A DNA stretch of 30,471 bases from a virus: positions 1-30,471 of the IMG/VR virus record IMGVR_UViG_3300027302_000024, one strand, 5' to 3'. This document shows positions 3,016 to 25,075 of this stretch, one piece after another. Position 1 is the first letter of the stretch. The number at the start of each line of letters is the position of its first letter. Under the pieces are notes generated by a model. It did not search any database and had not been told where the DNA came from. It worked only from the letters and a program-made list of their open reading frames with translations. The position numbers and the translations under genes are program-made.

Positions 3016-3048
3016 TTCTACAGCCTTTAACTTCTGTTTTTTTACTTT

Positions 3049-5091: not shown

Positions 5092-6140
5092 AACGACCTC
5101 GCTTGTTTATCAGTGACATCGAGGGTCGTCTGCACGTCGCCGAAATCAGGCAGCACCACAGCGGCTCCAGACGCTGACGCGGCTTCATGCGCTTTGGCTT
5201 GTCCCTTACCGTTTTCGTCCAGATCGGCGCAGATCAGCAGTTTGGCGTCCGGACACTGTTTGCGAACCGTCGCGGCGACTGACACCAGGTTACCGGCGTC
5301 AAAAGCGACGACGACCGGCCATTCGGTGGCCATGTGGATGCTGGCGCCAGTGGCATAGCCTTCGGCAAATGCAACAACCGTTGCGCCGGTGAGGTTGCCG
5401 ATAATGTGATACAAACCGGCCTTGCGCCCGTATTTCGGGAACAGCTTGTCGGTTGCGGAAATGGCCTGCAACGACCACAGCTTGCCGTCGACGTCGCGCA
5501 GCGGGATAACAATCGTGCCTTTTTTGAAAAACAGAAAACTGATGTGGTCCGGGCGCGGCTTGGGCAGCTTGTCGAAAAACTTCATGATTTTGCCGCCAGT
5601 GAGCACACCGGTGCTTTGACTGTCGTCGTCAATCCAGAGCAATACGCTTTGATGAAAAAACCGTATGCCGAACCCGCCTACCTGTTTTTTCTTGAGGTAT
5701 TCCGACTCGCCGAAGTCGTGGCAAAAATTCTCCCAGATCTTGAGGCAGTTTTTGGCGACGACGCCTTGCATGGTTTCACGCTTGGCAGTGTCGGCCTCGA
5801 TCTGGGCCTCACGTTCCGCGCGGCGTTGTTCCTGTTCCTGTTTGAGCTGGCGCTTTTCGGCGGGTGTGAGGTCGCGTTTGTTGGGTTTCCAGCCGGTTTG
5901 CTGGGCCAGATAGATGACGGTGCCGAGGGTGCATTTTCCCACGGCCAGGGAGTCCCAAACGCCACGGGCGTCTTTACGGTTGTACGTTTCCGCCGATTGG
6001 CTCCATGTATCCCAATGGCTGTACGCATCCTCGCCGAACTCGGTTTTGAGGCCGTTGCCGACTTTAAACCAAACGTCGCGGTCGTCGGCGTTGATATGCA
6101 ACAGGATGGCGGGCAAATCGTGCAGTTGTATGTCCAGCAT
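5088..6140 (-). CDS. primase with PriCT-2 and TOPRIM domains
   Basis: A 350-residue protein. Residues 5-85 match a PriCT-2-type domain (LHDLPAILLHINADDRDVWFKVG ... split by WDTWSQSAETY). A charged coiled linker follows (90-130, KRQLKQEQEQRRAEREAQ). From about 205 a TOPRIM domain has the acidic Glu in AEGYATGAS (Glu260) and the DxD-type pair in CADLDENGKG (Asp306, Asp308). It would make RNA primers for phage replication with the helicase encoded next. No CxxC zinc finger is visible, unlike P4 alpha. The start at 6140 is chosen because it overlaps the CII-like stop by one base (TGATG). A longer reading to 6392 gives an Arg/His-rich out-of-frame shadow of the CII gene. Confidence 0.82.
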   Translation of the reverse strand: MLDIQLHDLPAILLHINADDRDVWFKVGNGLKTEFGEDAYSHWDTWSQSAETYNRKDARGVWDSLAVGKCTLGTVIYLAQQTGWKPNKRDLTPAEKRQLKQEQEQRRAEREAQIEADTAKRETMQGVVAKNCLKIWENFCHDFGESEYLKKKQVGGFGIRFFHQSVLLWIDDDSQSTGVLTGGKIMKFFDKLPKPRPDHISFLFFKKGTIVIPLRDVDGKLWSLQAISATDKLFPKYGRKAGLYHIIGNLTGATVVAFAEGYATGASIHMATEWPVVVAFDAGNLVSVAATVRKQCPDAKLLICADLDENGKGQAKAHEAASASGAAVVLPDFGDVQTTLDVTDKQARSL

Positions 6141-6637
6141 CAACGTTGCTCCCGCTTCTGTTTGGCCAGCGTTAGCACTGCCTGGGCGGATTGCATGAGG
6201 GTGATGATTGCCTTGTCCAGCATGGCCAGCTCCTCCTCGGTCACGATGCCGTCGTCGTAGGCAGCGGCGACTTTGCGCGTGAGGTCGCCGACATTGCTGG
6301 ACACCTCGCCCAGCTGTACAAACATGCTGCTGTCGCTGACCGTATCGAGACCGCTGATGTCGATCCAGATGGCATTGCCGTAGATGCTGCACAGGCTGTC
6401 CATGATGCGCGGGTCACGGGTGAGCGAGATGATGGCTTCCAGCTCAGGCACGGTGAGTACGTGGCGCCCTTCATTGTTCAGGTTGATTTTGTTTTGCAGG
6501 GTATTGGCGTTGTAGCCGGTCGCGCCGGCGACGGCGCCGACACCGCCGCGCATGTCGTGGACGGCGTGATAGATCGCTGTCCGTAATGGCAGGATGGTCT
6601 GCTCGATGCGCTGTTGACGTGTTAAACCGCTCTTCAT
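6140..6637 (-). CDS. phage regulatory protein CII-like (Phage_CP76 type)
   Basis: A 165-residue protein resembling the Phage_CP76/CII family. It has an N-terminal helix-turn-helix (HAVHDMRGGVGAVAGATGYNANTLQNKIN) followed by the HVLTVPELEAIISLTRD motif seen in that family. A helical C-terminus is likely an oligomerisation region (ELAMLDKAIITLMQSAQAVLTLAKQ). Such proteins activate or tune the lysis-lysogeny choice. AGGGA lies 7 bases upstream of the ATG. It sits between the Cro-like gene and the primase, the usual place for CII. Confidence 0.78.
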   Translation of the reverse strand: MKSGLTRQQRIEQTILPLRTAIYHAVHDMRGGVGAVAGATGYNANTLQNKINLNNEGRHVLTVPELEAIISLTRDPRIMDSLCSIYGNAIWIDISGLDTVSDSSMFVQLGEVSSNVGDLTRKVAAAYDDGIVTEEELAMLDKAIITLMQSAQAVLTLAKQKREQR

Positions 6638-6667
6638 TGTTATTCCCTGATTTTTATGTGGTGAAAC

Positions 6668-6684
6668 ACGACGTATTTCGTCGT
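6668..6684 (-). terminator. weak hairpin between Cro-like and CII-like genes
   Basis: ACGACG (6668-6673) and CGTCGT (6679-6684) form a 6-bp stem with a five-base loop in the 99-base gap between the two early regulators. A lambda tR1-like attenuator sits in this place in other phages. There is no clean U run after it on the minus strand, so termination is only a possibility. Confidence 0.3.
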
Positions 6685-6736
6685 TTCTAACGTCTTTATT
6701 TGTGCGTATTGTTTAATTGCCCGGCACTGACTGCAG

Positions 6737-6997
6737 TTAGGATGCAGCCAGCGAGGTATGTTCTAAGCTATCTGTTTCGAGCAGACCGAAATGCACAAGC
6801 ACGTCAACGTCACGTATCAGACCATTCGACTTGGCCGACAAAGCTTTCATCAGCTCTTTTTTTGGATATTTGCGACCGTGCATCAGATGAACTTTGATAT
6901 AGCCCGATGTTGTGCCGCAGTCTTTGGCGTACTGTTCTAACTGAGCATCCGTCAGGGAACGAATGAATTCAGGAAATGTCATGGTAGCAAAACTCAT
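6737..6997 (-). CDS. Cro-like helix-turn-helix repressor
   Basis: An 86-residue protein divergent from the CI-type repressor, first gene of the leftward early operon. Its N-terminal helices (FPEFIRSLTDAQLEQYAKDCGTTSGYIKVHLMHG) read as a Cro/YdaS-like HTH with DAQLEQYAKDCGTTSGYIKVHL as the helix-turn-helix. The operator 6999-7013 abuts its ATG, so the message is short-leadered; only a weak AGG precedes the start. An alternative ATG at 6982 has no ribosome site. It should compete with the repressor at the same operators to favour lytic growth. Confidence 0.75.
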   Translation of the reverse strand: MSFATMTFPEFIRSLTDAQLEQYAKDCGTTSGYIKVHLMHGRKYPKKELMKALSAKSNGLIRDVDVLVHFGLLETDSLEHTSLAAS

Positions 6998-6998
6998 A

Positions 6999-7013
6999 AT
7001 ACCTGTCAGGTAT
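6999..7013. promoter_or_regulatory. operator (left region, O1)
   Basis: ATACCTGTCAGGTAT is an almost perfect 15-bp palindrome, with outer bases (6998, 7014) extending it to AATACCTG-T-CAGGTATT. It touches the Cro-like start codon and lies after the predicted start of the leftward transcript. Confidence 0.82.
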
Positions 7014-7030
7014 TACGATACCCCAGCGGG

Positions 7031-7059
7031 ATTATACCTGCAAGCACATTTACCTAGCA
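7031..7059 (-). promoter_or_regulatory. leftward early promoter (pL/pR-like)
   Basis: A perfect TATAAT -10 box is read on the minus strand at 7031-7036. The -35 position (about 7054-7059) is poor and lies inside the operator 7050-7064. A half-operator ATACCTG (7034-7040) overlaps the -10 region. Repressor binding would therefore block polymerase directly. Confidence 0.6.
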
Positions 7060-7064
7060 GGTAT
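7050..7064. promoter_or_regulatory. operator (left region, O2)
   Basis: TTACCTAGCAGGTAT matches the operator consensus ATACCT-nnn-AGGTAT with one change. It overlaps the first two bases of the repressor ATG, so a leaderless or self-regulated repressor message is likely, as for lambda cI. Confidence 0.78.
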
Positions 7065-7743
7065 GAAAGTGTTTAATTTTTCAATGAATATCGACGACAT
7101 AAGACGCGGCAATGCGCGCATGCTTGCAGAGCAGACTGACAGCAAACACCCAATCAAAGGCCTTGCAAATAAGCTTGGGAAGCCGCACGCCCTGATGAGC
7201 CACTACATCGGGAAGAACCCAACAAAGAATATTGGCCCTCAGATTGCCAGAGAGATCGAAGTAGCTTATGGTCATCCTGAAGGCTGGATGGATACACCCC
7301 ATTTTCAAGACACAATCAGAGAACAGTCACGGACGTACGCCTTACCACAACTAATACCAATAAAAGGGTGCGCTCAATTGGGTGACGGTGGATTCTGGGA
7401 AACATTCGAGTATCCAGAGGGACATGGTGACGGCTACATTCAATGGTACAGCGACGATCCTGACGCTTATGCTGTTCAAGGTATTGGGGATAGCATGGCC
7501 CCGCGCATTAGGCACAAGGAATACGCCATCATCGAGCCAAACAGAACCGTTTTTAACGGTGATGAGGTTTTTGTCGTCACCAGTGACGGGCGCCGGATGG
7601 TTAAAATATTCCTGTATTTTCGTGATGACCGGGTGCACTTGGAAAGCACCAATGCCGACCATGAAAAGATTGTCTTGCTCAAACAGGAAGTGTTGACCAT
7701 GCACTATGTTGCAGGAATAGCAAAGGCAAAAGCAAAAATATAG
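7063..7743 (+). CDS. CI-type repressor, HTH plus S24 peptidase domain
   Basis: A 226-residue LexA/CI-family repressor. The N-terminal HTH covers about residues 30-70 (IKGLANKLGKPHALMSHYIG...). The C-terminal S24 domain has the nucleophile in GDSMAPRI (Ser144) and the general base Lys181 in RRMVKIF. The hinge region KGCAQLGDGG (101-110) has no Ala-Gly or Cys-Gly pair, the usual self-cleavage bonds, so RecA-driven cleavage is uncertain. Five operators of one consensus lie at 6999-7064 and 8454-8490, on both sides of its transcription unit. No good ribosome site precedes the ATG; the start codon overlaps an operator, which suggests a leaderless message. Confidence 0.9.
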   Translation: MKVFNFSMNIDDIRRGNARMLAEQTDSKHPIKGLANKLGKPHALMSHYIGKNPTKNIGPQIAREIEVAYGHPEGWMDTPHFQDTIREQSRTYALPQLIPIKGCAQLGDGGFWETFEYPEGHGDGYIQWYSDDPDAYAVQGIGDSMAPRIRHKEYAIIEPNRTVFNGDEVFVVTSDGRRMVKIFLYFRDDRVHLESTNADHEKIVLLKQEVLTMHYVAGIAKAKAKI

Positions 7744-8440: not shown

Positions 8441-8453
8441 ATTCTCTTAAATA

Positions 8454-8468
8454 ATACCTAGCAGGTAT
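8454..8468. promoter_or_regulatory. operator (right region, O3)
   Basis: ATACCTAGCAGGTAT is a 15-bp near-perfect palindrome with the same consensus as the left operators. It lies just upstream of, and overlaps by one base, the -35 box of the rightward promoter. Confidence 0.85.
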
Positions 8469-8496
8469 TGCAATAATACCTGTGAGGTATTATTTT
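8468..8496 (+). promoter_or_regulatory. rightward early promoter
   Basis: TTGCAA (8468-8473) and TATTTT (8491-8496) are separated by exactly 17 bases. The spacer is filled by operator O4, so repressor binding should shut it off in lysogens. It would drive the rightward operon from 8529. Confidence 0.8.
8476..8490. promoter_or_regulatory. operator (right region, O4)
   Basis: ATACCTGTGAGGTAT, one mismatch from a perfect palindrome. Its centre is 22 bases from that of O3, about two helical turns, which suits cooperative binding of repressor dimers on one face of DNA. Confidence 0.85.
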
Positions 8497-11184: not shown

Positions 11185-11773
11185 ACCAAAGATTTTTGGT
11201 TGGGCCGTCAACTGGGCCAACAACCCACACAGCAACGGTACAGGGTTAATCAAAGCCAACATGTACATGGCCAAAGAACTGGCCGACGCCCGGAGAGAAC
11301 AAGGCGCGATTGTCACAACGCTGTATGCAGAGCCACCCGCAGCTATTCAGATTAACGACGTGGCCGCATTGCAGTTTGCCCATGATGCGATGATCGCCCT
11401 GCATGAGGCGTCCGAACCGGACGATACCCCGGAGCTGAATCCCGTTGTACCCGCAGCCGTTTTCAGCAAATTTGTGGATGATATGGCCCAGATCGGCGGG
11501 ATGCTGCATAAGGCGAAGCAGGCATACCCAGATGCTCGACGCGACCTTCAAAAGCACTTGGATCGGTGCGCGTCCGAGGTTGAAACTTGGCCGGAATGGA
11601 AGCGCGCTTGCTTGAAGCCTGCACCTATTCCTGACGTAGTAGTTGATAAACATTTGGATGCTGTATTGCAGGCTGCCGGATCCGATTTACGGTATTACAC
11701 CATGGATCGCACTGTTGCCAGGATGCGAGCAGCTATGCGTGAAGCTATGCAGGCAAAAGGCGGTGCAACATGA
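11174..11773 (+). CDS. hypothetical protein (199 aa)
   Basis: A 199-residue protein starting MNNEPKIFGWAVNWANNPHS. The N-terminal part has a short alpha/beta motif; the rest is helical (FSKFVDDMAQIGGMLHKAKQAYPDARRDLQKHLDRC). It has no known family that I can name. The start has only a weak AAGG site and overlaps the gene before by 11 bases. It ends with an ATGA overlap with the methyltransferase, so the two may be produced together. Confidence 0.65.
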   Translation: MNNEPKIFGWAVNWANNPHSNGTGLIKANMYMAKELADARREQGAIVTTLYAEPPAAIQINDVAALQFAHDAMIALHEASEPDDTPELNPVVPAAVFSKFVDDMAQIGGMLHKAKQAYPDARRDLQKHLDRCASEVETWPEWKRACLKPAPIPDVVVDKHLDAVLQAAGSDLRYYTMDRTVARMRAAMREAMQAKGGAT

Positions 11774-13440
11774 AACGCCGCCCACACGCCAAACACCCTA
11801 TCTACCGCGTCAACCCGCAGAACACTTTCAACTTTGGCGAGCAGTTGGTCGACAACTTTGCCGGCGGTGGTGGCGCCAGTACCGGCATAGAAATGGCCAT
11901 GGGCCGACCGGTTGACATCGCCATCAATCACGACCCGATTGCCGTTGCCTGCCACACCGTCAACCATCCCAACACCACGCACTACTGCGAATCGGTTTGG
12001 GATGTAAACCCGCGTGACGTTGCACCAGCACACCGCATCGGGCTGGCATGGTTCAGCCCGGATTGCCGTCACTTTTCCAAAGCCAAAGGCGCTGCGCCAG
12101 TGTCGCCCCGCGTTCGCGGTCTGGCATGGGTAGTCCTGCGCTGGATGGCCACACGTAAACCGCGAGTCGTGGTGCTGGAGAATGTCGAGGAGTTTCAAAC
12201 ATGGGGCCCAGTGGTACGCAATGACGACGGCGACCATTACCCCTGCCCACGTCGCAAGGGCCACACATTCCGCGTGTTCATCAACGCCATGCGCCGGCAG
12301 GGCTATACGGTTGAATGGCGCGAATTGCGAGCCTGCGACTATGGCACACCGACCAGCCGCAAACGTCTGTTCCTGATTGCACGGCGCGACGGCCAGCCAA
12401 TTGTATGGCCAGCGCCAACGCACGGCCCCGGCCTGCTACCGTACAAGACTGCCGCCGATTGCATCGACTGGTCATTGCCTTGCCCAAGCATTTTCGATCG
12501 CAAAAATCCGCTGGCAGATGCTACCTGTCGCCGGATTGCGGCCGGGATTATGCGATATGTGGTCAACAATCCGGAACCGTTTATTGTCAGCTACTACGGC
12601 GCGAAAGAAGGCGAGAAATTCAGAGGTCAGGGCATCAGCCAGCCGCTGAAAACCCAGACCACTGAGAACCGGTTTGGTATTGTTGTGCCTACGCTGGCTC
12701 CGATCATCACTGAACACGCGAACGCCAGCCATCAACGCAACTTTTCGGCCGACGAACCGCTGCGGACGCAATGCGCTCAGGTTAAAGGCGGTCATTTTGC
12801 TGTGGTATCGGCATTCCTTGCCAAACATTACGGCGGAGTTGTTGGCCACGGTGTTGAGCAGCCGCTTGGCACAGTGACGACAGTTGATCATCACAGCCTT
12901 GTGACTGCCACGCTGATCGGCGCCGGTGGATCAGAGTATTCTGGCAAGCCTGCACCAGTTGATAAACCCATCGGCACGCTGACCACCGAGAACCATAAAG
13001 CGCTTGTTACCAGTCATCTTGTGAAGCTACGCAATAACTGCATCGGTCAATCCGTAGAAAAGCCACTGGATACCATCACCAGCAATGGCGGTCATTTTGG
13101 CGAGATTCGCGCCTTTCTGATCAAATACTACGGCAACGAATCAGGCGGCATCAATATCAACGAGCCTATGGACACCATCCCTACACGCGACCGGTTCGGT
13201 CTTGTGATGGTGCGTGGCGAGCCGTACCAGATTGTTGATATCGGTATGCGCATGCTGGAGCCGCACGAGCTGGCGAAGGCTCAAGGCTTCCCAGATGACT
13301 ACCGCCTGACAGATTTGAACGGCAAAAAACTTTCTAAAAAAGACCAGGTGCGCTTGATCGGCAACAGCGTTTGTCCGCCGATTGCGGCAGCTATTGTCAA
13401 AGCGAATATGGTCGATGTTGTTGAAGAGGTGGCAGCGTGA
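11770..13440 (+). CDS. DNA cytosine-C5 methyltransferase
   Basis: A 556-residue C5 methyltransferase that adds a methyl group from S-adenosylmethionine to cytosine. Motif I DNFAGGGGASTG (28-39), catalytic motif IV SPDCRHFSKAKG (Cys99), motif VI LENVEEF (136-142), motif VIII PTSRKRLFLIA (RxR at 197-199) and motif X GNSVCPPIAAAI are all present. Between VIII and X the recognition region holds about six related units with a PL-x-T-x-T core (see findings). No restriction partner is nearby, so it is probably an orphan that protects phage DNA from host enzymes. It overlaps the gene before by four bases (ATGA) and the one after by GTGA. Confidence 0.93.
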   Translation: MKRRPHAKHPIYRVNPQNTFNFGEQLVDNFAGGGGASTGIEMAMGRPVDIAINHDPIAVACHTVNHPNTTHYCESVWDVNPRDVAPAHRIGLAWFSPDCRHFSKAKGAAPVSPRVRGLAWVVLRWMATRKPRVVVLENVEEFQTWGPVVRNDDGDHYPCPRRKGHTFRVFINAMRRQGYTVEWRELRACDYGTPTSRKRLFLIARRDGQPIVWPAPTHGPGLLPYKTAADCIDWSLPCPSIFDRKNPLADATCRRIAAGIMRYVVNNPEPFIVSYYGAKEGEKFRGQGISQPLKTQTTENRFGIVVPTLAPIITEHANASHQRNFSADEPLRTQCAQVKGGHFAVVSAFLAKHYGGVVGHGVEQPLGTVTTVDHHSLVTATLIGAGGSEYSGKPAPVDKPIGTLTTENHKALVTSHLVKLRNNCIGQSVEKPLDTITSNGGHFGEIRAFLIKYYGNESGGININEPMDTIPTRDRFGLVMVRGEPYQIVDIGMRMLEPHELAKAQGFPDDYRLTDLNGKKLSKKDQVRLIGNSVCPPIAAAIVKANMVDVVEEVAA

Positions 13441-13871
13441 CAATCCTTGATCTATTCGCCGATATCGCCCCGCCCGAAGCTGCAAAGTACTGCGCAGGCC
13501 ATGACTACCAAAACCCGTTTTGGGCAACGCAACGTCGGCACTTAATCGGTACCGATGAAAGCGGCATCGAGCTTCTGGCGGCCTATACCGGCCAGCACTG
13601 GGTAGGAGGTTTTCGTTATTTCAAACTGGACGGCAGAAAACTCCAGTTTTGCTTTGAACTCATGCCAGGCGAAGTCAAGATTTTCAGTCAGCGCGGCTGG
13701 CTGACATGGCCCGATGACGCCATTGTCGGGGGCAATCTGAATTATGCCTATGCTGCCGCAGCCAGTGCTGTCCAGGCGCTGATCTGCAGCAGCGGCACTC
13801 ATCTGCCGGTCGACAGCGAACTGTTGATGCAAGTTGTCAATTTTTGCCGCGAACAGCGACTGCAGGCTTGA
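13437..13871 (+). CDS. hypothetical protein downstream of the methyltransferase
   Basis: A 144-residue protein with GTG start overlapping the methyltransferase stop, so coupled to it. It has an aromatic, strand-rich middle (GQHWVGGFRYFKLDGRKLQFCFELMPGEVKIFSQRGWLTWPDD) and a helical C-terminus. No known domain is recognised. It could be a partner or modulator of the methyltransferase, but the link is only positional. Confidence 0.68.
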   Translation: MTILDLFADIAPPEAAKYCAGHDYQNPFWATQRRHLIGTDESGIELLAAYTGQHWVGGFRYFKLDGRKLQFCFELMPGEVKIFSQRGWLTWPDDAIVGGNLNYAYAAAASAVQALICSSGTHLPVDSELLMQVVNFCREQRLQA

Positions 13872-13884
13872 GGGAGGTACAATC

Positions 13885-14100
13885 ATGAACACCACCTTTC
13901 TAACCACCGAAGAAATTAAGCAGCTCACTGGCTATCAGATCACCAGTCGCCAGGTGAAGTGGCTGGAAGCCAATGCTATCCCCTTTTTCCTGAACGGCCT
14001 CAAGCGCCCTGTCGTTGTGCGTGACGTATTAACCGCACGCAGCGGCCTGAAGCCTGTAAACTCCGACGCCGGCGAATTTGAGCTCGGCGCTGTCAAATAG
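13885..14100 (+). CDS. DUF4224-like protein, candidate excisionase
   Basis: A 71-residue protein starting MNTTFLTTEEIKQLTGYQ. The pattern of LT-x-EEI-x-LTGY followed by RQVKWLEANAIPF...RPVV fits the DUF4224 family, whose members sit directly upstream of phage integrases. The small MerR-like fold and position suggest an excisionase-type directionality factor. The start has GGGAGGT six bases upstream, which rejects the longer reading from 13834. The integrase begins 11 bases after its stop. Confidence 0.75.
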   Translation: MNTTFLTTEEIKQLTGYQITSRQVKWLEANAIPFFLNGLKRPVVVRDVLTARSGLKPVNSDAGEFELGAVK

Positions 14101-14111
14101 AGCACACAACC

Positions 14112-15101
14112 ATGGTCGGCCGTAAAAGCAAAAACCATCACCTACCCCAACGCATGACAGCCCGCATCATGGCCAGCGGCAAGATCCTGTACTACTACCG
14201 CCTGCGCGATGGTAAAAGCATCCCCCTGGGCGACGATTTGAATGCGGCCAAGATCAAATGGGCTGAGCTGGAGTCAGGTGCTGTCAACAAAAAAACGACC
14301 ATGGCCGATATATTTGCTCGTTATGAAAAAGAAGTGCTGCCCCAGAAAGGCTCCAAAACGCAGAAAGACCAGGGCAACCAATTGAAGCTGCTGGTTGCCG
14401 CCTTCGGCCACGCAGAGCCGAACCAGATCCAACCCAAACACATTCGGCAATACCTCGATCGACGCACCGCCAAAATTGCAGCAAATCGGGAGGTTGCTCT
14501 TTTCAGCCATGTGTTCAACTGCGCCCGGGAATGGGGCTATACCGACAAGATCAATCCGGTCGAGGGCGTCAGAAAGAATAAAGAGCGGCCGCGCGACGTG
14601 TACGTCGAAGACGAAGATTTCCACCTGGTACTAAAACACTGCACGCCAGAAATGGCCGATCTGTTGGAGCTGGCATACCTCACTGGCCAGCGGCCAGGGG
14701 ACATCCGCAAATGGCGCAAGAGTCAGATCAAAGATGGCGTACTGCAGCTGCGCCAGGACAAAACACAAAAGCGGATGGGCTTGCGAATCGTTGGCGAACT
14801 GGCTGATATTATCAACAGGGCAATCAACCGCCCCAGATCCGCCTGCAGCTTGTTTATCGTGGCCACAGAAAAGGGCGAGCCATTAACCCAACCCATGATG
14901 CGGGACCGGTTTAATGACGCAAGAGATGCGGCAAGCGCCGAGGTTGGTTATAAGGTGAAGTGGCAGGTGCGGGACATCCGAGCCAAGGCCGCCACGGACA
15001 GCCAGAGCTTGCTCGATGCACAGTCGCTGTTGGGGCATGAAAGCCCAACGACGACTAAGAGGGTTTATAGGCGGGGCGAGATTGTGAAGCCGTTGAAGTA
15101 A
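14112..15101 (+). CDS. int: tyrosine integrase
   Basis: A 329-residue tyrosine recombinase. Catalytic residues: Arg194 (TGQRPGDIR), Lys217 (QDKTQKR), Arg290 in VRDIRAKAATD, His309 (LLGHE) and Tyr319 (KRVYRRG). The first histidine of the usual HxxR is replaced by Arg287, as in several phage integrases. The N-terminal part holds an arm-binding domain and a SAM-like core-binding domain (about 60-150). It should recombine attP (16092-16310), about 1 kb downstream, with a tRNA-Thr gene. No strong ribosome site is seen before its ATG, so coupling to the DUF4224 gene is likely. Confidence 0.93.
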   Translation: MVGRKSKNHHLPQRMTARIMASGKILYYYRLRDGKSIPLGDDLNAAKIKWAELESGAVNKKTTMADIFARYEKEVLPQKGSKTQKDQGNQLKLLVAAFGHAEPNQIQPKHIRQYLDRRTAKIAANREVALFSHVFNCAREWGYTDKINPVEGVRKNKERPRDVYVEDEDFHLVLKHCTPEMADLLELAYLTGQRPGDIRKWRKSQIKDGVLQLRQDKTQKRMGLRIVGELADIINRAINRPRSACSLFIVATEKGEPLTQPMMRDRFNDARDAASAEVGYKVKWQVRDIRAKAATDSQSLLDAQSLLGHESPTTTKRVYRRGEIVKPLK

Positions 15102-15135
15102 TCCGACGAACGGCAGAAAATAATTAAAATAGGGC

Positions 15136-15164
15136 TTGCATGGTGTACTTTGTATACCTATAAT
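15136..15164 (+). promoter_or_regulatory. strong promoter with spacer operator (cassette A)
   Basis: TTGCAT (15136-15141) and a perfect TATAAT (15159-15164) are 17 bases apart. The whole 17-base spacer is an imperfect palindrome: GGTGTAC-TTT-GTATACC. It is unrelated to the CI operators. The HTH protein at 15827-16057 is the natural candidate repressor, so the cassette may be self-regulated and active in lysogens and early infection. Confidence 0.78.
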
Positions 15165-15234
15165 AAACCACATGAGGTAAGCAATTCTGCTAACCGACCC
15201 GCACCCAGGGTACTAATCAGGGTGGAGAAATATC
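15165..15234 (+). other. 5' leader of cassette A, possibly structured
   Basis: A 64-70 base untranslated leader with AGCA-ATTC-TGCT hairpin potential and a CACCC/GGGTG pairing. It has the order GCAAT, CCCAG, TACT, AGG also seen in the cassette B leader (24721-24774). It ends in GGAG seven bases before the ATG. Its function is unknown. Confidence 0.35.
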
Positions 15235-15489
15235 ATGTACGCAGTTATCCAAATAGGCTATGCGGTTTACGGTATCGGCAGCACCATCACAGAAGCAATC
15301 AACAACGCCAATGAGTGGATGGATGGCGATGTAGAGATCAGTGAGTTCATCAGCAACAATAGCCACGCTGTCGGTGATATCGTGGTTCTACGCTGCAGCG
15401 AGGCTTTGGCCAATGCGATCGCTGAAAAAGGCGGAGACATCGCATACGAAATCACCTGCAAAGAAGCCCATCTTCCATCGGAAGAGTAA
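15235..15489 (+). CDS. small acidic protein, cassette A (84 aa)
   Basis: An 84-residue very acidic protein (about 14 Asp/Glu against 3 Lys/Arg), starting MYAVIQIGYAVYGIGSTI. GGAG lies seven bases upstream of the ATG. No membrane segment or known motif is seen. It is the first gene after the strong promoter, followed by a hairpin and a second acidic protein. The size and charge are typical of phage anti-defence proteins such as DNA-mimic or anti-CRISPR proteins, but this is inference from context. Confidence 0.7.
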   Translation: MYAVIQIGYAVYGIGSTITEAINNANEWMDGDVEISEFISNNSHAVGDIVVLRCSEALANAIAEKGGDIAYEITCKEAHLPSEE

Positions 15490-15497
15490 AACATAAA

Positions 15498-15520
15498 GCC
15501 CCGCTCCAACGGGGCATTTT
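15498..15520 (+). terminator. intergenic hairpin in cassette A (attenuator-like)
   Basis: GCCCCG (15498-15503) pairs with CGGGGC (15510-15515), followed by ATTTTCTT. The next gene's GGAGG is directly behind it. The U run is weak, so it may only reduce downstream expression or stabilise the first message. A similar hairpin stands in the same place in cassette B (25047-25062). Confidence 0.6.
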
Positions 15521-15533
15521 CTTGGAGGCCAAA

Positions 15534-15830
15534 ATGGCACACGCAATAAAGGTAAAAATCCCCGACAGCCTCGATTTTTCTGACCTTAAACTGGCCCGCG
15601 ATAATGACGGCCATATCTCATTTGACTGGCAGCCTATCGACTCAATCTGTACCGCCAGCGGCATCAATCCCGCTGTTTTTCGTGACATGCCGGAGGACAA
15701 TGTGTCCGGGCTGATTATCCAGTGGTACGGGCATCACATCGCAGACGGCGGCGATCGTGACCCGATTGCTGATGAGTTGTTGGCCGAGGTTATGCTGGAG
15801 GATGCGCCAGCGCTGGGAGGTACACAGTGA
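15534..15830 (+). CDS. small acidic protein, cassette A (98 aa)
   Basis: A 98-residue strongly acidic protein (about 18 Asp/Glu against 6 Lys/Arg): MAHAIKVKIPDSLDFSDLKLARD... The start at 15534 has GGAGG five bases before it, better than 15522. It overlaps the HTH gene by GTGA, so the two are coupled. No family is recognised. As the middle gene of a promoter-acidic-acidic-HTH array, it is a second anti-defence candidate. Confidence 0.7.
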   Translation: MAHAIKVKIPDSLDFSDLKLARDNDGHISFDWQPIDSICTASGINPAVFRDMPEDNVSGLIIQWYGHHIADGGDRDPIADELLAEVMLEDAPALGGTQ

Positions 15831-16057
15831 ATATCACAGCTGACAAAATACGACAAACCAGGCAAGAAGCCGGACACACACAAGCAAGGGCTGCCCATCT
15901 TGCACGGGTTTCGCTCGTTACCTGGAAAAAGTATGAGGCGGGCGAACGCTCGCCCAGTGATTCCGCCTGGGAACTGTATCTATTGGAGAGCGGACAACAC
16001 CCAACAAGACAAATCGTAGAAAAGCTCAAGCCAAATAAGCCATCAACAGCTCTGTAA
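15827..16057 (+). CDS. small HTH regulator, cassette A (Aca-like candidate)
   Basis: A 76-residue XRE-type helix-turn-helix protein. Helices RQTRQEAGHTQARAAHLA and SLVTWKKYEAGERSPSDSAWEL form the classical HTH with the WxxYExGxRxP signature found in small phage regulators, including several Aca proteins. The GTG start overlaps the preceding stop. Its likely operator is the palindrome in the promoter at 15142-15158. It would limit the burst of cassette expression. Confidence 0.78.
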   Translation: MNITADKIRQTRQEAGHTQARAAHLARVSLVTWKKYEAGERSPSDSAWELYLLESGQHPTRQIVEKLKPNKPSTAL

Positions 16058-16069
16058 TGGGGCTTTTTA
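16037..16069 (+). terminator. possible terminator at end of cassette A
   Basis: AAGCCAT and ATGGGGCTT pair with a two-base bulge across the end of the HTH gene and are followed by TTTT. It is imperfect, so termination is only likely, not sure. Confidence 0.4.
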
Positions 16070-16091
16070 TGCTCAATAATCAAGCAAAATT

Positions 16092-16310
16092 CGGTATCAA
16101 ATACAAAAACACACCTTTATGATACAATGACTTGCAAGAGAGGTATTTGATACCGTTTTTGCATAACATATTTATTTTGCTTAAAATATATTCTGATTCG
16201 TAATCAGTAGGTCGGCGGTTCGATTCCGCCTTTCAGCGCCAGAAAAATCAATGGCTTACAGCAATATACCGGCATAACGAGTTGTACCGGTATCAAATGC
16301 TGTATCAAAT
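16092..16310. other. attP attachment site with arm-type repeats
   Basis: The site has a tRNA 3' fragment as core (16192-16241) flanked by copies of GGTATCAAAT. Left arm: 16093-16102 forward and 16145-16154 reverse, inside a perfect 13-bp inverted repeat (16092-16104 and 16143-16155). Right arm: 16289-16298 and, without the first G, 16302-16310, the last touching the tail-fibre stop codon. These are the expected integrase arm sites, and the spacing of arms on both sides of the core is that of an intact attP. Confidence 0.75.
16192..16241 (+). tRNA. tRNA-Thr(CGT) 3' fragment, attP core
   Basis: The 3' part of a tRNA: anticodon loop TTCGTAA with CGT at 16199-16201, T-arm GGCGG/CCGCC with loop TTCGATT, acceptor strand TTTCAGC, then G and CCA at 16239-16241. 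The matching 5' acceptor (GCTGAAA) and D-arm are absent. Base 16192 cannot pair with 16208, showing that the phage-derived flank starts there. Integration into the host tRNA would restore a full gene. A G before CCA is not usual for tRNA-Thr, so the identity rests on the anticodon. Confidence 0.8.
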
Positions 16311-18964
16311 CACCCGATCCTGATAACCGCCCTACCTCGTCCGCCACTAGTGCTTACCCGCAGGCCTTTGGCCGTCACCACGCCGCTTGTGTGCAGTGTG
16401 AAGTTAGTTGAATTAATCACTGTAACCGACTTGCCGACAAGCTCAGGCGGCATCGCGATCCATTGCGCAGATAACGTGGCATGACAGTCAAATATCCAGT
16501 GGACCGAACCATCTGCCAAAGAATATTTGAAATCGACTGTGTAGTTCGGGTTTGTACTCATGTCGTAGTAGCCGTTGAATGTCACGGCCTGTAAATTCTC
16601 GCCGGCGGCCGCCGTCGCGCCATACCCGCTATCTACAGCTCGGATATATTGTTTTTTAGCGGTTGATAGTTGCCACAACTCAACGCACAGGGCGGCACGT
16701 GTCGCAGGAACACCAACCCCTACATTCCGCGCATAACCATGCACAAACCCCCTGAGTTTATTGCCTGAGGAATCCTTGATAATTTGAGCAAAATGCGATG
16801 CTGGATCGCTGGTATTAAGACAATCAGCCTTAGCAACTGTGACTGTTGCCGCGTTATTTGTGATCTCGGCAATGTTGCTAAAATCATATCCACCTACAGC
16901 CCCGGTCAAGTCCGGCACATATTGCCAGACGGTTTCACCTGCGGCGACATTGCGATACGTGACCTGCCACTGCTGCCCGCCCCAGTAGTCGTCCGTCGAG
17001 CCGCCGGACCGCGCGTATTGCTCAACAACATAGTGATCAAAATAACCGACCTGGGCGCCATACCGATCAAACTGCCATGAGGCATTGACCTCAATTTGTG
17101 TGGCATTTGCCGGGTCATTCGGCAGCAGGGGCGTGACTGCCGGTTTGGCGGCAATGAGCGCCGTCAGCCATCGAGCAGGATTAGGAATGCCATAACTCTC
17201 ACGGACCTCGGCGCGGTAGCCTGAGTATGTACCATCTGCCGTAACCTGCACGCCATCAACATAAATCGCCGATGTGTAGTTTTGGGCGAGCGGCAAAAAC
17301 AACACAGCCGTGTTTACTGTGAATGTATACACACCTGCGCCTGCAAACGTGATTGTCGAACCCGTAACAGTGTTGCGGATCAGCCATTTACTCGCTGATG
17401 CACCATCGTTTTGAGCTGTAACGGTGATGTTATTTGCATCATCTATTTTTGTGATGACCCAGATTTTTGCCGCGCTATCAGTGCCCGTATCGCCAACAGC
17501 GGCATTCGTCAATCCGTGACCGGTTTTGGTCAGCTTGAATGATGCCGCGACGCCATGCCCACCGCCCAGGTACATCGAATTCAGCTTTTCTGGCGGGCTG
17601 TTGTCGTTGCTGGCCTGCAGGTACTCGGTGAGCAGTGCTGCCTCATACATAAACGCGGTATCAGCGGCAGCTGATGCAATTCTAATTTTGCGCACCCCAA
17701 CAAAATCAATTACACCGGCCTCGCTGGCACTTTGAGTCGCAGCGTATTTTAGTTTGCGCACCAGGTCATATGTTGCGTTGTACGGCTGACGGATATAGAC
17801 ATCGGTGCCAGATTTAACGAGCGTCACGGGGTAATCAGTGTTATCCACGGAATCCACCTGGTATGAGTTTGCTGGGTAATATTGGGCGTAATCGATCTGG
17901 GCTGTCCCCAAATAGACCATCGCACGGGCGCGCATAGTCGCGAAATCCTGAGTGGTAGGCGCACTGCCGACTGTGTCGTATGCCGACCACGCGATGTAAT
18001 TGACTCCGCTGGGGACTGTAAAAGTTGCAAACCGGTCACTCTGGGAAAACGTAGCAGTAATCAGCGAGTGAAACGTGCCCCCTCCCGCAGGAGCGGCTGT
18101 GTAACCCATCACTCGAGCCAAGCTGCTGGGTTTGAATATTTTCCAGTCGCTGTGGCAGTTGGTCATGTCAATGACCAGTTGCTGGCCAGCAGTGACCGCA
18201 ATCAATCCGGATCTGTGATACCCGGTAACAGCCCCTACAGAGCCGGACGGGTTGTATGTACTGTTGTCGGCATGATCAGCAATGTTTGGATCGTAGATAT
18301 TTGCTGATGTGAGCAGAGTAAAATTTTCCAACATGCCGGTTTGTTTGGCAGTAATCGCGTCAATCGCCGCTTTACTCGGGTAGGTTGCAATCAATGTCGA
18401 GCTGCCGGAGTTAACCCGACGATATTCGTATGCGGCAATGTCGCCAACACCCTGAACTTTAAACGCCACACCATCAGCCACAGCAGCACGGCCAGCAGCC
18501 TCGGTGGCATATACCCCGGCCCCGATAATTGCTGCATCGCGGGCATTTTCAGCACCGGTTTGCGCTAGTTGGGCGCCCGCTTCAGCGACCGATGCTGCTA
18601 CAGCAGAGTCATTTGCCTCTGCCGCCTTTGTTGTAGCAATGCCTGCAGAATCTCCCGCATCTGCGACAGCCTGTTGCAAGGTTCCCAGGTCGCCCACAAT
18701 CGCAAGCGACTGGTTTTTAGCATCAACAGACTCATCGCGTGCTGTTTCAGATTGCTGACGGGCTGTATCAGCAGCGGCGGCAATAACCTCTGTTTCATTT
18801 TTCAGGGTCTGCACCTGATCAACCGTATCTGCGGCCTGCTGAGCAAATTGTTCAGCCTCATCGCGGGCGTCATTCGCCGCCTGGACAACTAGCTGAGCGG
18901 TAGGCGGCACAGGCACCTGCCGGATAACAATCGGTTGGCTGGCTAAAATCGCTTTAGCAATCAT
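16310..18964 (-). CDS. tail fibre / receptor-binding protein
   Basis: An 884-residue fibre. The first 170 residues are a long Ala-rich coiled coil (DEAEQFAQQAADTVDQ..., DSAVAASVAEAGAQLAQTGAENARD) like lambda Stf-type shafts. A head linker follows, then a large beta-rich region of several small lectin- or jelly-roll-like parts (for example AVTGYHRSGLIAVTAGQQLVI and SGNKLRGFVHGYARNVG). It should bind the host surface. It follows the 18967 gene after two bases and is the last gene before attP, so recombination at attP would place it at a prophage end. Confidence 0.82.
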   Translation of the reverse strand: MIAKAILASQPIVIRQVPVPPTAQLVVQAANDARDEAEQFAQQAADTVDQVQTLKNETEVIAAAADTARQQSETARDESVDAKNQSLAIVGDLGTLQQAVADAGDSAGIATTKAAEANDSAVAASVAEAGAQLAQTGAENARDAAIIGAGVYATEAAGRAAVADGVAFKVQGVGDIAAYEYRRVNSGSSTLIATYPSKAAIDAITAKQTGMLENFTLLTSANIYDPNIADHADNSTYNPSGSVGAVTGYHRSGLIAVTAGQQLVIDMTNCHSDWKIFKPSSLARVMGYTAAPAGGGTFHSLITATFSQSDRFATFTVPSGVNYIAWSAYDTVGSAPTTQDFATMRARAMVYLGTAQIDYAQYYPANSYQVDSVDNTDYPVTLVKSGTDVYIRQPYNATYDLVRKLKYAATQSASEAGVIDFVGVRKIRIASAAADTAFMYEAALLTEYLQASNDNSPPEKLNSMYLGGGHGVAASFKLTKTGHGLTNAAVGDTGTDSAAKIWVITKIDDANNITVTAQNDGASASKWLIRNTVTGSTITFAGAGVYTFTVNTAVLFLPLAQNYTSAIYVDGVQVTADGTYSGYRAEVRESYGIPNPARWLTALIAAKPAVTPLLPNDPANATQIEVNASWQFDRYGAQVGYFDHYVVEQYARSGGSTDDYWGGQQWQVTYRNVAAGETVWQYVPDLTGAVGGYDFSNIAEITNNAATVTVAKADCLNTSDPASHFAQIIKDSSGNKLRGFVHGYARNVGVGVPATRAALCVELWQLSTAKKQYIRAVDSGYGATAAAGENLQAVTFNGYYDMSTNPNYTVDFKYSLADGSVHWIFDCHATLSAQWIAMPPELVGKSVTVINSTNFTLHTSGVVTAKGLRVSTSGGRGRAVIRIG

Positions 18965-18966
18965 TT

Positions 18967-19389
18967 TTATAATCTCGCAAAACAGACCAGGCCATGCGCC
19001 AAAAACGATACAGCGCCATCCAGCGTGATTTTGAGTGAGTACTCAGCAATATGACCCTCTGCCGACACGACAATATCGCCCTCATCGCTCTCAACAACGC
19101 CAGCGCTGACGACGCCCTTGCGGGTTAATGTTGCCGTCAGGTCTTTTGTGACCTCATCCGCTGGTACATGGACGGTGATTTTGGTCAGATCCTCGACAGT
19201 GATATGACCACTATCTGTACTCAACGTCAGGATGATGTCGTCACTGTCGTTGTCCGGCTTGATGACAAGCTCGATGTCGGCGCCGGATACGTCGACCGGA
19301 GTGCCGTCATCCGTTTGCCAGATCCATTGCGGCGGATAAGGGCCGTCGGCATCTATTTCAAAAATGATGTCTTGTCGTAGTGATGGCAT
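18967..19389 (-). CDS. tail tip-associated protein (baseplate, 140 aa)
   Basis: A 140-residue beta-rich protein (FEIDADGPYPPQWIWQTDDGTPVDVSGADIELVIKPDNDSD...). This layout of DGxPVDLSG followed by a long Ig-like fold is seen in small phage proteins placed between the tail tip and the fibre, similar to the N-terminus of BppU-type baseplate proteins. It may link fibre to tip. A terminator-type hairpin (19401-19424) precedes it by about a dozen bases. The ribosome site is GGGTGA. Confidence 0.65.
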   Translation of the reverse strand: MPSLRQDIIFEIDADGPYPPQWIWQTDDGTPVDVSGADIELVIKPDNDSDDIILTLSTDSGHITVEDLTKITVHVPADEVTKDLTATLTRKGVVSAGVVESDEGDIVVSAEGHIAEYSLKITLDGAVSFLAHGLVCFARL

Positions 19390-19400
19390 ATTTCACCCAT

Positions 19401-19424
19401 AAAAAAGCCCAGCGATTGCTGGGC
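19401..19424 (-). terminator. terminator-type hairpin before 18967-19389
   Basis: GCCCAGC (19407-19413) pairs with GCTGGGC (19418-19424) around a four-base loop and is followed by six U residues on the minus strand. It lies only 12 bases before the ATG of the next gene. Confidence 0.8.
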
Positions 19425-19441
19425 CCAGAGAATTTGAATTG

Positions 19442-21838
19442 TCAGGTAATGGCGCCGTAGCGAGTACCGGTGTCTATCCAGGTGATGTTGCTGTCGCCAG
19501 CAATTGCTGTCCCGATTGATCCGCCGGCAGCCCCAGGGAATGCTGCGCCAGTCCCAATACTCACGAGCGAACCATCGTCGCCGTCATATCCGGTTGTCGC
19601 CGACGGGATGTTGCCACCTAACCCGCCAGCCCCGCCGAATACCCTGCTGATTTCGTTTTCCGATGCCCCGCCAGCGCCCGCATCAGTTGCAGTACCCGCA
19701 TTACCAGGGTTCCCGTTATGGTCTGGCGAGCCGACGATTGGGACCATGGCTCCAGCGGCCCCGTATGGCCAGCCACCACCACCAGCACTACCGCCCACCC
19801 TACGCAAGTCGCCGACGCCGACAAAACCCCATGCCGCTCCGCCGCCGCCGCCGCCGCCGCATCCACCACTGATAATCCCCGAGGAGTTATCTATGGTGAT
19901 CGCGTGATTTGCATACAAGGCCGGACCGCCATCACCGCCGTCGCCTGATGGCACCTCATTTGTTGATGCGTCAAGCGAGCCACCATCACCACCAGGGCCA
20001 CCCCGCCCCGCAATAATCCCGTGGTTTTCCAGTGTTAACACAACGCCTGACGGCCATCTGGTATCAACGGTCATGCCATAGTTTGAAGTCGTCGACCCAT
20101 AAATCAGGACGTCTTCATTGACGATAAACAGGACGGTTATACCAGGTTCTGGCTCGCCGTATTCATCAACAAAATCGTCGTACAGGTTGACGCTGGTATA
20201 TTCGTCGGCGCTATAGATGATCGTGTAACTGTTGCCGGTCGGAATAGCAGTACTGACCTGCTGCGCCCGATACATATAGTCGTCGTTGTCCGTCGGTTGG
20301 GCGTAGACCACTTCCATCGGCACCAGGGCATGAGCGCCAGTCACTGACTCCATTTTGCGGGTCTGCGCATAAAACAGGTCGCCGACTTTACGACGATGGC
20401 CTGGTACAAGCCCGAAGGTCAGCACCTGCGGCGGATCTCGGTACGTTTTCAGCAATGCGTCCGCCAGGGCATTGGCCCGGCCTTGCGAGGTCTTTTTAAA
20501 CCAGCGGCTGTACACCTTTTTGATCAGATTGCTGCCATATTCCAAATCGCTGATGGCCTCCAGATTCGGCGTGGCAACCCGCAACTGATAGTTTTTCTGG
20601 TCGTCCAGTTTTTCGGTCGGCTTGAGCTGGGCAAAATAGATCAGCACCGTGCTGATACGCTGGTTGGTATCGGTTTTGACGTCCAGCGTTTTGGCCAAAA
20701 AATGCTGATCATCGGTCAGCACCGGCAGGTCTTCGGGCAACGGTTTGATCGCCCGGAATTTGATTTGCTGGTCTTCTTCATCCCACCAGATGCGGCAGGT
20801 TCCCTGCTCGGTCAGTTCGCCTAGCAGCGTATTGACGCCGGTCGGCTCGGTAATCTCACAGCTAAATACCCCGGCCAGGTAATCGTTAAATTCAGTGTTC
20901 CAGGCGCTGTAGTCGATGTAGCTGCTACTGATCCCCGCATAGTCCGTCAGCAGGCTGTAAATGACGTCGTGCACTTTCTCGTCATCATAAATGCCGACCA
21001 GCTGCACGGTGTCATCCTCGCTGTGCGCCTCGGCGCCGGTGTTGCTCTGTGCCCGCGTCACGGTAAACGCATCGCCAGAACGGGTAAACGTCATCACCTC
21101 GCCGCTGATCGCCAGTTTGCCGCTGGCGGGATATTCGCTGCCAACACCGGACGGGCTAACGCTGAAACTAGTGTCGCTGTTGCTGATATCGGCAGACAAC
21201 CGACCGTTCGATGGCTTGGGAAACAAGGCTTTTTTGTCGTCGGCCAGTTTCAAAATGTCTTTGGCGACAACCTTCATGCCGTCGTTTTTGTCTGGGCCTT
21301 GCAGCTGCTCGATGACATACACGCTGTCGATAAAATTGTCCCAACTGAACACGCCAGTCAGATAGCCACGGCGCACCCGTAAAACCCGGTTTTCATAGAA
21401 CGGATTGCGCGCCTTGAACTTGCCCCAGAACGTCCCCTGGTTAGTGTCGTATGCGCGTTCTCGCCAGTACGGGTCAATCTCGGTATCCGGCCAGGGTGCG
21501 TTGATAAAGTTGGCCGTGACACTGCCACGCACACCCAGACCTTTGCCGGGCGTGATTTCCTGACTGGCGAACGACACCGATTTGAGCAACGGGATAGCCG
21601 ACAGCCCGACCGGCAGATCGGCGTTTTGATCGCAGAAGCGATAGGTTTTGACCGTTTTGTCAAAATTCGGCTTGTCTTGGCAAGTGGCGTATGTGTTGTA
21701 GCATTTGTCGTCACCGGTGACGCCGACGCTGGCCGTGCAGGGGCTGGAGCCATAGACGTTGCCACAATAGTCCATGTCACACTCGACAAACACCGTCGGG
21801 ATGCGGCCAAATTTGGCAGCTTCGGCGCTGTAGGTCAT
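19442..21838 (-). CDS. central tail tip protein with glycine-rich adhesin region
   Basis: A 798-residue tail tip protein. The first 500 residues have the features of a tail hub/tip protein (RVLRVRRGYLTGVFS, DILKLADDKKALFP, CRIWWDEEDQQIKFRAI, RWFKKTSQGRANALADALLKTYRDPP). From about 600 the sequence turns into a glycine-rich adhesin with poly-Gly blocks (GRGGPGGDGGS, GGCGGGGGGGAAWG, GGAGGLGGN), like T-even gp38-type or J-like receptor-binding tips that fold into polyglycine sandwiches. ATG at 21838 overlaps the stop of the gene before (ATGA). Confidence 0.78.
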   Translation of the reverse strand: MTYSAEAAKFGRIPTVFVECDMDYCGNVYGSSPCTASVGVTGDDKCYNTYATCQDKPNFDKTVKTYRFCDQNADLPVGLSAIPLLKSVSFASQEITPGKGLGVRGSVTANFINAPWPDTEIDPYWRERAYDTNQGTFWGKFKARNPFYENRVLRVRRGYLTGVFSWDNFIDSVYVIEQLQGPDKNDGMKVVAKDILKLADDKKALFPKPSNGRLSADISNSDTSFSVSPSGVGSEYPASGKLAISGEVMTFTRSGDAFTVTRAQSNTGAEAHSEDDTVQLVGIYDDEKVHDVIYSLLTDYAGISSSYIDYSAWNTEFNDYLAGVFSCEITEPTGVNTLLGELTEQGTCRIWWDEEDQQIKFRAIKPLPEDLPVLTDDQHFLAKTLDVKTDTNQRISTVLIYFAQLKPTEKLDDQKNYQLRVATPNLEAISDLEYGSNLIKKVYSRWFKKTSQGRANALADALLKTYRDPPQVLTFGLVPGHRRKVGDLFYAQTRKMESVTGAHALVPMEVVYAQPTDNDDYMYRAQQVSTAIPTGNSYTIIYSADEYTSVNLYDDFVDEYGEPEPGITVLFIVNEDVLIYGSTTSNYGMTVDTRWPSGVVLTLENHGIIAGRGGPGGDGGSLDASTNEVPSGDGGDGGPALYANHAITIDNSSGIISGGCGGGGGGGAAWGFVGVGDLRRVGGSAGGGGWPYGAAGAMVPIVGSPDHNGNPGNAGTATDAGAGGASENEISRVFGGAGGLGGNIPSATTGYDGDDGSLVSIGTGAAFPGAAGGSIGTAIAGDSNITWIDTGTRYGAIT

Positions 21839-24691: not shown

Positions 24692-24720
24692 TTGATTGCG
24701 CCTAATTATAGGCGCATAAT
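24692..24720 (+). promoter_or_regulatory. strong promoter with spacer operator (cassette B)
   Basis: TTGATT (24692-24697) and CATAAT (24715-24720) are separated by 17 bases. The spacer is a perfect palindrome, GCGCCTA-ATTA-TAGGCGC (24698-24715). As in cassette A the operator occupies the polymerase footprint. The HTH protein at 25076-25600 is the likely autoregulator. Confidence 0.8.
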
Positions 24721-24774
24721 TCAACACATAGGGAAGGCAATCGCGCCGCCCAGTAGTCAAATGAGGACTTCAAA
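24721..24774 (+). other. 5' leader of cassette B, possibly structured
   Basis: About 50 bases of leader holding GGCAATCGCGCC and CCCAGTAGTCAAATGAGG, in the same order as similar words in the cassette A leader (15165-15234). GAGG lies eight bases before the ATG. Confidence 0.35.
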
Positions 24775-25038
24775 ATGGAAAACATGCAACAACTCCCCAA
24801 AATCGTCGAAAACACTTTTGCCTATGTCTCCACTGGCAACTGCACTCAAAACTGGATGGTTGATGGCGACGACATCCAAGATCGTGCCAATGCTCATCTG
24901 TCTGCTTACTATGGGGTAGAAGCAGTCATCCATCAGCGCGGCGTTCATGGGTTCGCTTTGATGATTGGCGATTATGTTATCGATTTATTCAACACCCGCG
25001 AAGCTGCCGATAATTATCTGGCCAACGTATCCATATAA
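24775..25038 (+). CDS. small acidic protein, cassette B (87 aa)
   Basis: An 87-residue acidic protein (about 11 Asp/Glu against 4 Lys/Arg), MENMQQLPKIVENTFAYVSTG. It is soluble, of mixed fold and unlike any family I know. It lies on the + strand inside the leftward tail operon, with its own promoter, the mark of a moron. A hairpin and an HTH gene follow. A role against a host defence is a fair guess from architecture only. Confidence 0.72.
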   Translation: MENMQQLPKIVENTFAYVSTGNCTQNWMVDGDDIQDRANAHLSAYYGVEAVIHQRGVHGFALMIGDYVIDLFNTREAADNYLANVSI

Positions 25039-25046
25039 TTCCAATA

Positions 25047-25062
25047 GGCCGCTCCGGCGGCC
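25047..25062 (+). other. intergenic hairpin in cassette B
   Basis: GGCCGC (25047-25052) and GCGGCC (25057-25062) form a perfect 6-bp stem with a TCCG loop, directly before the GGAG of the next gene. It has no U run, so it acts on RNA stability or translation if at all. Cassette A has a hairpin in the same place. Confidence 0.5.
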
Positions 25063-25075
25063 ATCGGAGAACAAC

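Follow-up and report, generated by a model that had tools for sequence, protein, structure and literature searches.

A candidate autoregulated anti-defence operon between the integrase gene and attP of a viral genome

The cassette at positions 15136-16057 is, with an estimated probability of roughly two in three, an autoregulated anti-defence operon built on the acr-aca/ardA-HTH plan, as judged from gene order, homology, operator conservation, and synteny. It probably combines a new candidate effector family (orf98) with an orphan gene (orf84), and is probably not a switch for lysogeny or superinfection. The original prediction had offered both anti-defence and superinfection control as roles. 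The anti-defence half is supported, the support being by association, and comparison with relatives lifts it from a guess to what appears to be the best explanation. The guilt-by-association search near acr and antirestriction genes that had been proposed was run and turned out positive. HTH76 falls into the HTH group of the Aca10 and ArdA operons, and the operator core is common with the ArdA type. Relatives of orf98 adjoin an Aca10-like HTH gene or a DUF1874 gene, and some are fused to a ribbon-helix-helix domain of the AcrIF25 type. The superinfection or lysogeny control half is unsupported; the phage has a separate module with CI (7063-7743) and CII (6140-6637).

Genomic setting of the cassette

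The window, i.e., the whole stretch of DNA that was analysed, comprises 30,471 bases and is a whole IMG/VR virus record. Genes for head (capsid PF05065), tail, and lysis are on the minus strand, and the CI/CII control region, in which CI is an S24 peptidase, is found at 6.1-7.7 kb. On the plus strand, an excisionase-like gene (DUF4224, 13885-14100; Pfam PF13986, 1.1e-10; PHROG excisionase, 1.2e-13) is the upstream neighbour of the gene for the tyrosine integrase (14112-15101; Pfam PF00589, 4.4e-10; PHROG integrase, 1.5e-42), which is 43% identical to the integrase of Pseudomonas phage F10. The attP core (16195-16241, plus strand) corresponds to the 3' half of tRNA-Thr(CGT), as seen upon alignment to the whole tRNA-Thr. 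The Rfam tRNA score at 16179-16238 is 28.9 bits, slightly below the cut-off of 29. With integrase and attP both identified, the cassette is located between them, as had been described. The DNA of positions 12000-20000 has no match among the phage records.

This location might suggest that the cassette controls integration and excision, with the promoter palindrome as an arm site of integrase or excisionase and HTH76 as an XafT-like recombination factor. HTH76 does match the VC1465/XafT model (NF040522) at 27.6 bits; however, the cut-off of that model is 70 bits. Inverted repeats at 16087-16160 (I1; 18 nt, 89%) are probable integrase arm sites, and arm-like repeats (GGTATCAAATAC) flank attP, spread over 16087-16310. 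These do not recur at the promoter, so that its palindrome was rejected as an integrase arm site, and the phage has its own excisionase-like gene at 13885-14100. We consider this explanation hardly credible.

A related phage (locus L002) has an integrase with 50% identity and the same tRNA-Thr site. At 6571-7120 it carries a different acidic gene and an Aca10-like HTH gene with a palindromic promoter, on the opposite side of attP, as if cargo had been exchanged. Just upstream of the integrase region of the window, at 11770-13440, is a gene for a C5-cytosine methyltransferase (PF00145), the second half of which has repeated motifs of the type PLGTVTTxxHHSLV. Such a phage-borne enzyme near the integrase could act in anti-restriction in its own right. 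Elsewhere in the window, at 8448-8496, two adjacent palindromes (ATACCTAGCAGGTAT and ATACCTGTGAGGTAT) overlap promoter-like sites and are likely to be another operator.

Organisation of the cassette

Every feature named in the original prediction exists, and the observation as a whole is confirmed, with three features toned down. The promoter (15136-15164, plus strand) consists of TTGCAT (15136-15141), the 17-bp spacer GGTGTACTTTGTATACC, and TATAAT (15159-15164), a layout shared by the operons of relatives. The label 'near-consensus' is justified for the -10 element (6/6) but not for the -35 element (3/6), and a standard scan makes no call. An imperfect palindrome (GGTGTAC-TTT-GTATACC, 15142-15158) fills the spacer and is the probable operator of HTH76; it is present as reported but, taken alone, within chance (p about 0.07). 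The hairpin between orf84 and orf98 (15498-15515, plus strand; GCCCCG-CTCCAA-CGGGGC), a possible attenuator, is also present, but its folding is marginal (z -1.53, with equally good results for 14 of 200 shuffles). An RsmY-like RNA at 15422-15518 was rejected (18.9 bits compared to a cut-off of 57).

The remaining features stand as described. The first effector candidate, orf84 (15235-15489, plus strand), codes for 84 residues with a net charge of -11, and the main effector candidate, orf98 (15534-15830, plus strand), for 98 residues with a net charge of -12. The gene for the repressor candidate, hth76 (15827-16057, plus strand; 76 residues, net charge +4), comes last and overlaps orf98 by GTGA. 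A weak terminator-like hairpin (16048-16064, plus strand) lies at the operon end, and no co-directional gene follows hth76 before attP. Among the about 40 genes, the most acidic are orf84 (-0.13 per residue), orf98 (-0.12), and the gene at 18967-19389 (-0.129). The latter, on the minus strand, codes for a 140-residue protein of the tail region with a net charge of -18 and a weak match to PHROG 1084.

As for the claim that the cassette at 24692-25600 has the same architecture, the promoter architecture is indeed the same (TTGATT-GCGCCTAATTATAGGCG-CATAAT). The spacer of that promoter contains a perfect palindrome of 8 bp, and the cassette has genes for proteins of 87 and 175 residues, the longer of which has a C-terminal HTH-like stretch (PHROG 12690, YdaS-like, with a score below the cut-off).

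No relatives of orf84 were found in viral contigs, plasmids (chance matches only), 200 genomes, or the fetched loci (L numbers). A single-sequence model of orf84 (pLDDT 50) is too poor for use.

HTH76 as a repressor of the Aca10/ArdA-operon group

HTH76 has a Pfam HTH_31 domain (1.1e-9). It matches 7xi5, the Aca10 structure, with an E-value of 1.4e-6, and has no comparable match elsewhere in PDB; the Aca10 link rests on this match, with a circular profile that contained an Aca10 row being disregarded. The two proteins share 20 of 48 residues. Aca10 is the regulator of acrIC7-acrIC6-aca10 and binds to a palindromic site within its own promoter (PMC9410881, where 7xi5 is identified as Aca10).

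The best matches of HTH76 among 72,556 plasmid records are HTH genes from Acinetobacter (28 of 63 residues identical). On 6/6 examined Acinetobacter plasmids (L012, L013, L020, L038, L039, L040), which are interrelated and thus count as one lineage, the HTH gene is the final gene behind ardA and at most two small genes. For three of these plasmids, a Pfam search confirmed the identity of ArdA. Based on these homologies, we assign HTH76 to the Aca10/ArdA-operon HTH group. It shares with Aca10 a homologous HTH_31 domain, the place as last gene of a short operon for small proteins, and an inverted repeat within the core promoter (p 0.07 taken alone). The HTH group is broad: several members end operons with cargo lacking an assigned function, and others are solitary.

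Because HTH76 is small, of the Xre type, and weakly similar to the RstR and DicA models, it could be taken for the immunity repressor of a superinfection or lysogeny control module. The RstR and DicA scores are all far below the cut-offs, however, and a complete CI-like (S24) plus CII module is already encoded at 6140-7743. In addition, hth76 is the last gene of a co-directional operon, has no divergent promoter, and codes for a protein devoid of an S24 domain. All this makes an immunity repressor very unlikely. HTH76 is also weakly similar to HTH proteins of the MqsA/HipB type, and might then be the antitoxin of a toxin-antitoxin pair that stabilises the prophage. We rate this as highly improbable: the scores (MqsA, 16.6 bits; TIGR03830, 26.7 bits) compare to cut-offs of 30 and 61.8, respectively, the strongly acidic orf84 and orf98 match no toxin family, and the fold comparison gave no toxin-like match.

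The operator palindrome

As the spacer palindrome of the window is weak alone, its weight comes only from comparison with relatives. A palindromic stretch of 16-18 bases between -35 and -10 recurs in operons of the HTH group from Acinetobacter, Klebsiella, Serratia, Gluconobacter, Laribacter, and phage L002. Such promoters are TTGATT-TAGGTACATTGTACCTA-TATAAT (L020), TTGATA-AATACGCTCATTGAGCG-TATTGT (L036), TTGCAA-TACACTCATGGAGTGTG-TATATT (L021), TTGCGT-CGCACGGATTCCGTGC-TATATT (L002), and TTGAAT-TTAGTATCCAACGGATAC-TAAGAT (L018). Individual p values for the spacer palindromes in the operons of relatives range from 0.0007 to 0.11. L036, L021, and L047 have sites similar to that published for Aca10 (ATACGCTCATTGAGCGTAT; PMC9410881), with Klebsiella and Laribacter among those that are alike.

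In the window, the spacer has the core GTACTTTGTAT, which is to be compared with GTACWNWGTAC in the ardA operons. Both cores have the same spacer centre (P 1.2e-4 for a fixed centre, 6e-4 anywhere, in a post hoc comparison with one mismatch allowed). The nearest HTH and the shared operator core are both of the ardA type, so that the closest HTH has the closest operator. The Acinetobacter ardA operons have an Aca-like HTH gene at the end, and in most of them GGTAC palindromes are found in the region from -35 to -10, which suggests that antirestriction genes on Acinetobacter plasmids may be autoregulated in the Aca manner.

The orf98 family

A conserved family is founded by orf98, which has no match in Pfam, PHROG, NCBIfam, or PADLOC. 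This family appears to be undescribed. Neither orf84 nor orf98 matched a known Acr in Pfam, NCBIfam, PHROG, PADLOC, or PDB, the ArdA domain (PF07275) is absent from both in a Pfam search, and the proteins have no match among the phage records. An AlphaFold model of orf98, built from three sequences, is mostly helical (pLDDT 81); when compared to PDB, it gave chance matches by Foldseek (E 0.78 or worse) and a VIA-align Z of 2.6 at best.

Relatives of orf98 were found by tblastn on nine conjugative plasmids. The best one is a plasmid protein from Nitrosomonas stercoris (BBL36037; 60% identity over 85 residues), the gene of which (locus L003) is flanked by that for a 173-residue protein (net charge -26) and by a DUF1874/STIV B116 gene (PF08960, 9.9e-11, with relatives in PDB). 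DUF1874 is the AcrIII-1 ring-nuclease family, and the two names appear together in publications. The literature on AcrIII-1 is conflicting, according to a warning in PMC13131331. Positions 2349-3668 of this locus from a conjugative plasmid, with the acidic 173-residue gene, a fusion of an AcrIF25-type N-terminal domain with the orf98 domain, and then DUF1874, may be regarded as a candidate for a compact anti-CRISPR cluster.

The plan of the cassette recurs independently. In the Laribacter locus L021, a gene for a 111-residue protein (net charge -17) is followed by the orf98 relative and by an Aca10-like HTH gene with an ATGA overlap. The orf98-HTH pair is kept in a second Laribacter copy (L024). 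The viral contigs L022 and L045 have orf98 together with a gene for a small overlapping HTH protein or small basic protein. Such a gene overlaps the orf98 stop codon in 4/4 independent phage-type loci. A likeness of the 69-residue protein of L045 to ribbon-helix-helix proteins was noted by eye; Pfam did not support it.

Four of the relatives (L003, L021, L022, L045) have an extra N-terminal ribbon-helix-helix domain. The only real match of this domain in PDB is AcrIF25, with E-values of 2.5e-12 for the L022 segment, 6.7e-10 for L003, and 4.7e-8 for L021, that of L045 being assigned via its 64% identity to L022. The subfamily with this AcrIF25-like domain is rare, being present in 5 of 72,556 plasmid records. 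In AcrIF25 itself, inhibition is done by the C-terminal domain (PMC13131331), and it is in this place that relatives of the L003/L021/L022 type have the orf98 domain. No sequence match to the AcrIF25 C-terminus was obtained with the orf98-family profile or with full-length L003 or L021. Proteins with a similar N-terminal domain from Salmonella Newport and N. eutropha were set aside as degenerate or devoid of the orf98 domain. It is possible, at somewhat less than even odds, that the orf98 domain represents a new family of effectors against CRISPR, or against defence in general, which occurs free under an Aca-like repressor, as in the cassette, or swapped onto the AcrIF25 ribbon-helix-helix domain. 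If true, the latter would be a carrier that phages and conjugative plasmids reuse with various inhibitory C-termini.

Several findings speak against an anti-defence function: orf84 and orf98 have no known Acr or antirestriction match, orf98 of the window has no AcrIF25-like domain, and chromosomal and plasmid relatives of orf98 are found beside ordinary or unrelated genes. Relatives are rare in evenly drawn genomes (3/369 and 9/399) and mostly chromosomal. They adjoin mrp and thrC (as a group), a Nudix hydrolase gene, or an endonuclease I-like gene. The group beside mrp and thrC (L028, L029, L031, L032, L033) consists of 97-residue proteins encoded at a conserved place. Plasmid relatives from Marinobacter, Delftia, and Comamonadaceae lie next to genes that are not clearly connected with defence. 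Distant relatives are encoded directly before nucleases with a signal peptide (L006, 2983-4079; L007, 2983-3962; L026, 1504-2480), which are of the DUF1524 HNH type in Marinobacter and endonuclease I-like in L026. This adjacency may be a link or chance.

The cassette might therefore be an autoregulated moron operon with host-directed effectors unrelated to immunity, orf98 being an old family picked up by phages and plasmids. The ordinary chromosomal neighbours such as mrp/thrC would fit, as would the plasmid relatives that adjoin non-defence genes such as that for DsbC or precede nucleases with a signal peptide, and the orphan status of orf84. However, wherever orf98 occurs in a phage or prophage, a small regulator-like gene accompanies it, and several relatives have the AcrIF25-type domain. 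We thus consider a moron of this kind unlikely. Membership in the orf98 family by itself proves no function.

Proposed mechanism and implications

For the anti-defence operon, we infer the following course of events. On entry, the repressor would be absent and the promoter open, resulting in a burst of orf84 and orf98. At least orf98 would inhibit a host immune complex stoichiometrically, with orf84 perhaps being a second inhibitor. A CRISPR-Cas complex is the most likely target because of the links to Aca10, AcrIF25, and DUF1874. A restriction enzyme, which is less likely, may be considered because of the ardA link and the C5-methyltransferase of the phage itself (11770-13440). AcrIC proteins are mostly acidic and block DNA binding (PMC7913775); the charge of orf84 and orf98 fits this and singles out no target. 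HTH76 would be translated last via the GTGA overlap, accumulate, presumably dimerise, and bind the GTAC-N3-GTAY palindrome between -35 and -10. The operon would thereby be shut down, and a lysogen would retain a mere trickle of its products.

Should orf98 act as an inhibitor of a defence complex, it would represent a new effector family spanning phages, prophages, and conjugative plasmids, and AcrIF25 would be one case of a modular plan in which a common ribbon-helix-helix domain is combined with exchangeable inhibitory domains. The comparison also connects Aca-type repressors with ardA, and a common repressor group and promoter design seem to underlie antirestriction and anti-CRISPR operons alike. 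A small HTH gene in last position, combined with a palindrome that fills the -35/-10 spacer, may serve as a search rule for hidden anti-defence genes.

Comparison with known systems

The acrIC7-acrIC6-aca10 operon from Pseudomonas citronellolis (PMC9410881, PMC7913775) has small effectors followed by an HTH_31 gene of about 65-76 codons, and a palindrome inside the core promoter. The cassette shares this plan, and HTH76 is clearly similar to Aca10. In contrast, its effectors have no match to AcrIC6 or AcrIC7 in the databases searched, and its operator follows the ardA type, with a GTAC core, rather than the Aca10 type (CGCTCA).

AcrIF25 (8jdh/8jdi; PMC13131331) has an N-terminal domain that is homologous to that of the orf98 relatives L003, L021, and L022. 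This domain is absent from orf98 of the window, and the C-terminal half of AcrIF25 is a different sequence. The cassette is not assigned to the AcrIF25 family, nor to that of ArdA.

The Acinetobacter ardA operons have the closest HTH and resemble the cassette in the position of the palindrome within a 17-bp spacer, in the GTAC core, and in having an acidic gene first and the HTH gene last. Their first gene codes for ArdA, to which neither orf84 nor orf98 is similar, and their HTH gene does not overlap the preceding gene, whereas hth76 overlaps orf98.

The P2-like Laribacter prophage L021 (JAGPIM010000046) has an operator of the Aca10 type, compared to the ardA-type core in the window. Its first gene is unrelated in sequence to orf84, and its orf98 relative is extended by the N-terminal domain. 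The order of the three genes, the spacer palindrome, and the 4-bp overlap between orf98 and the HTH gene are the same as in the cassette.
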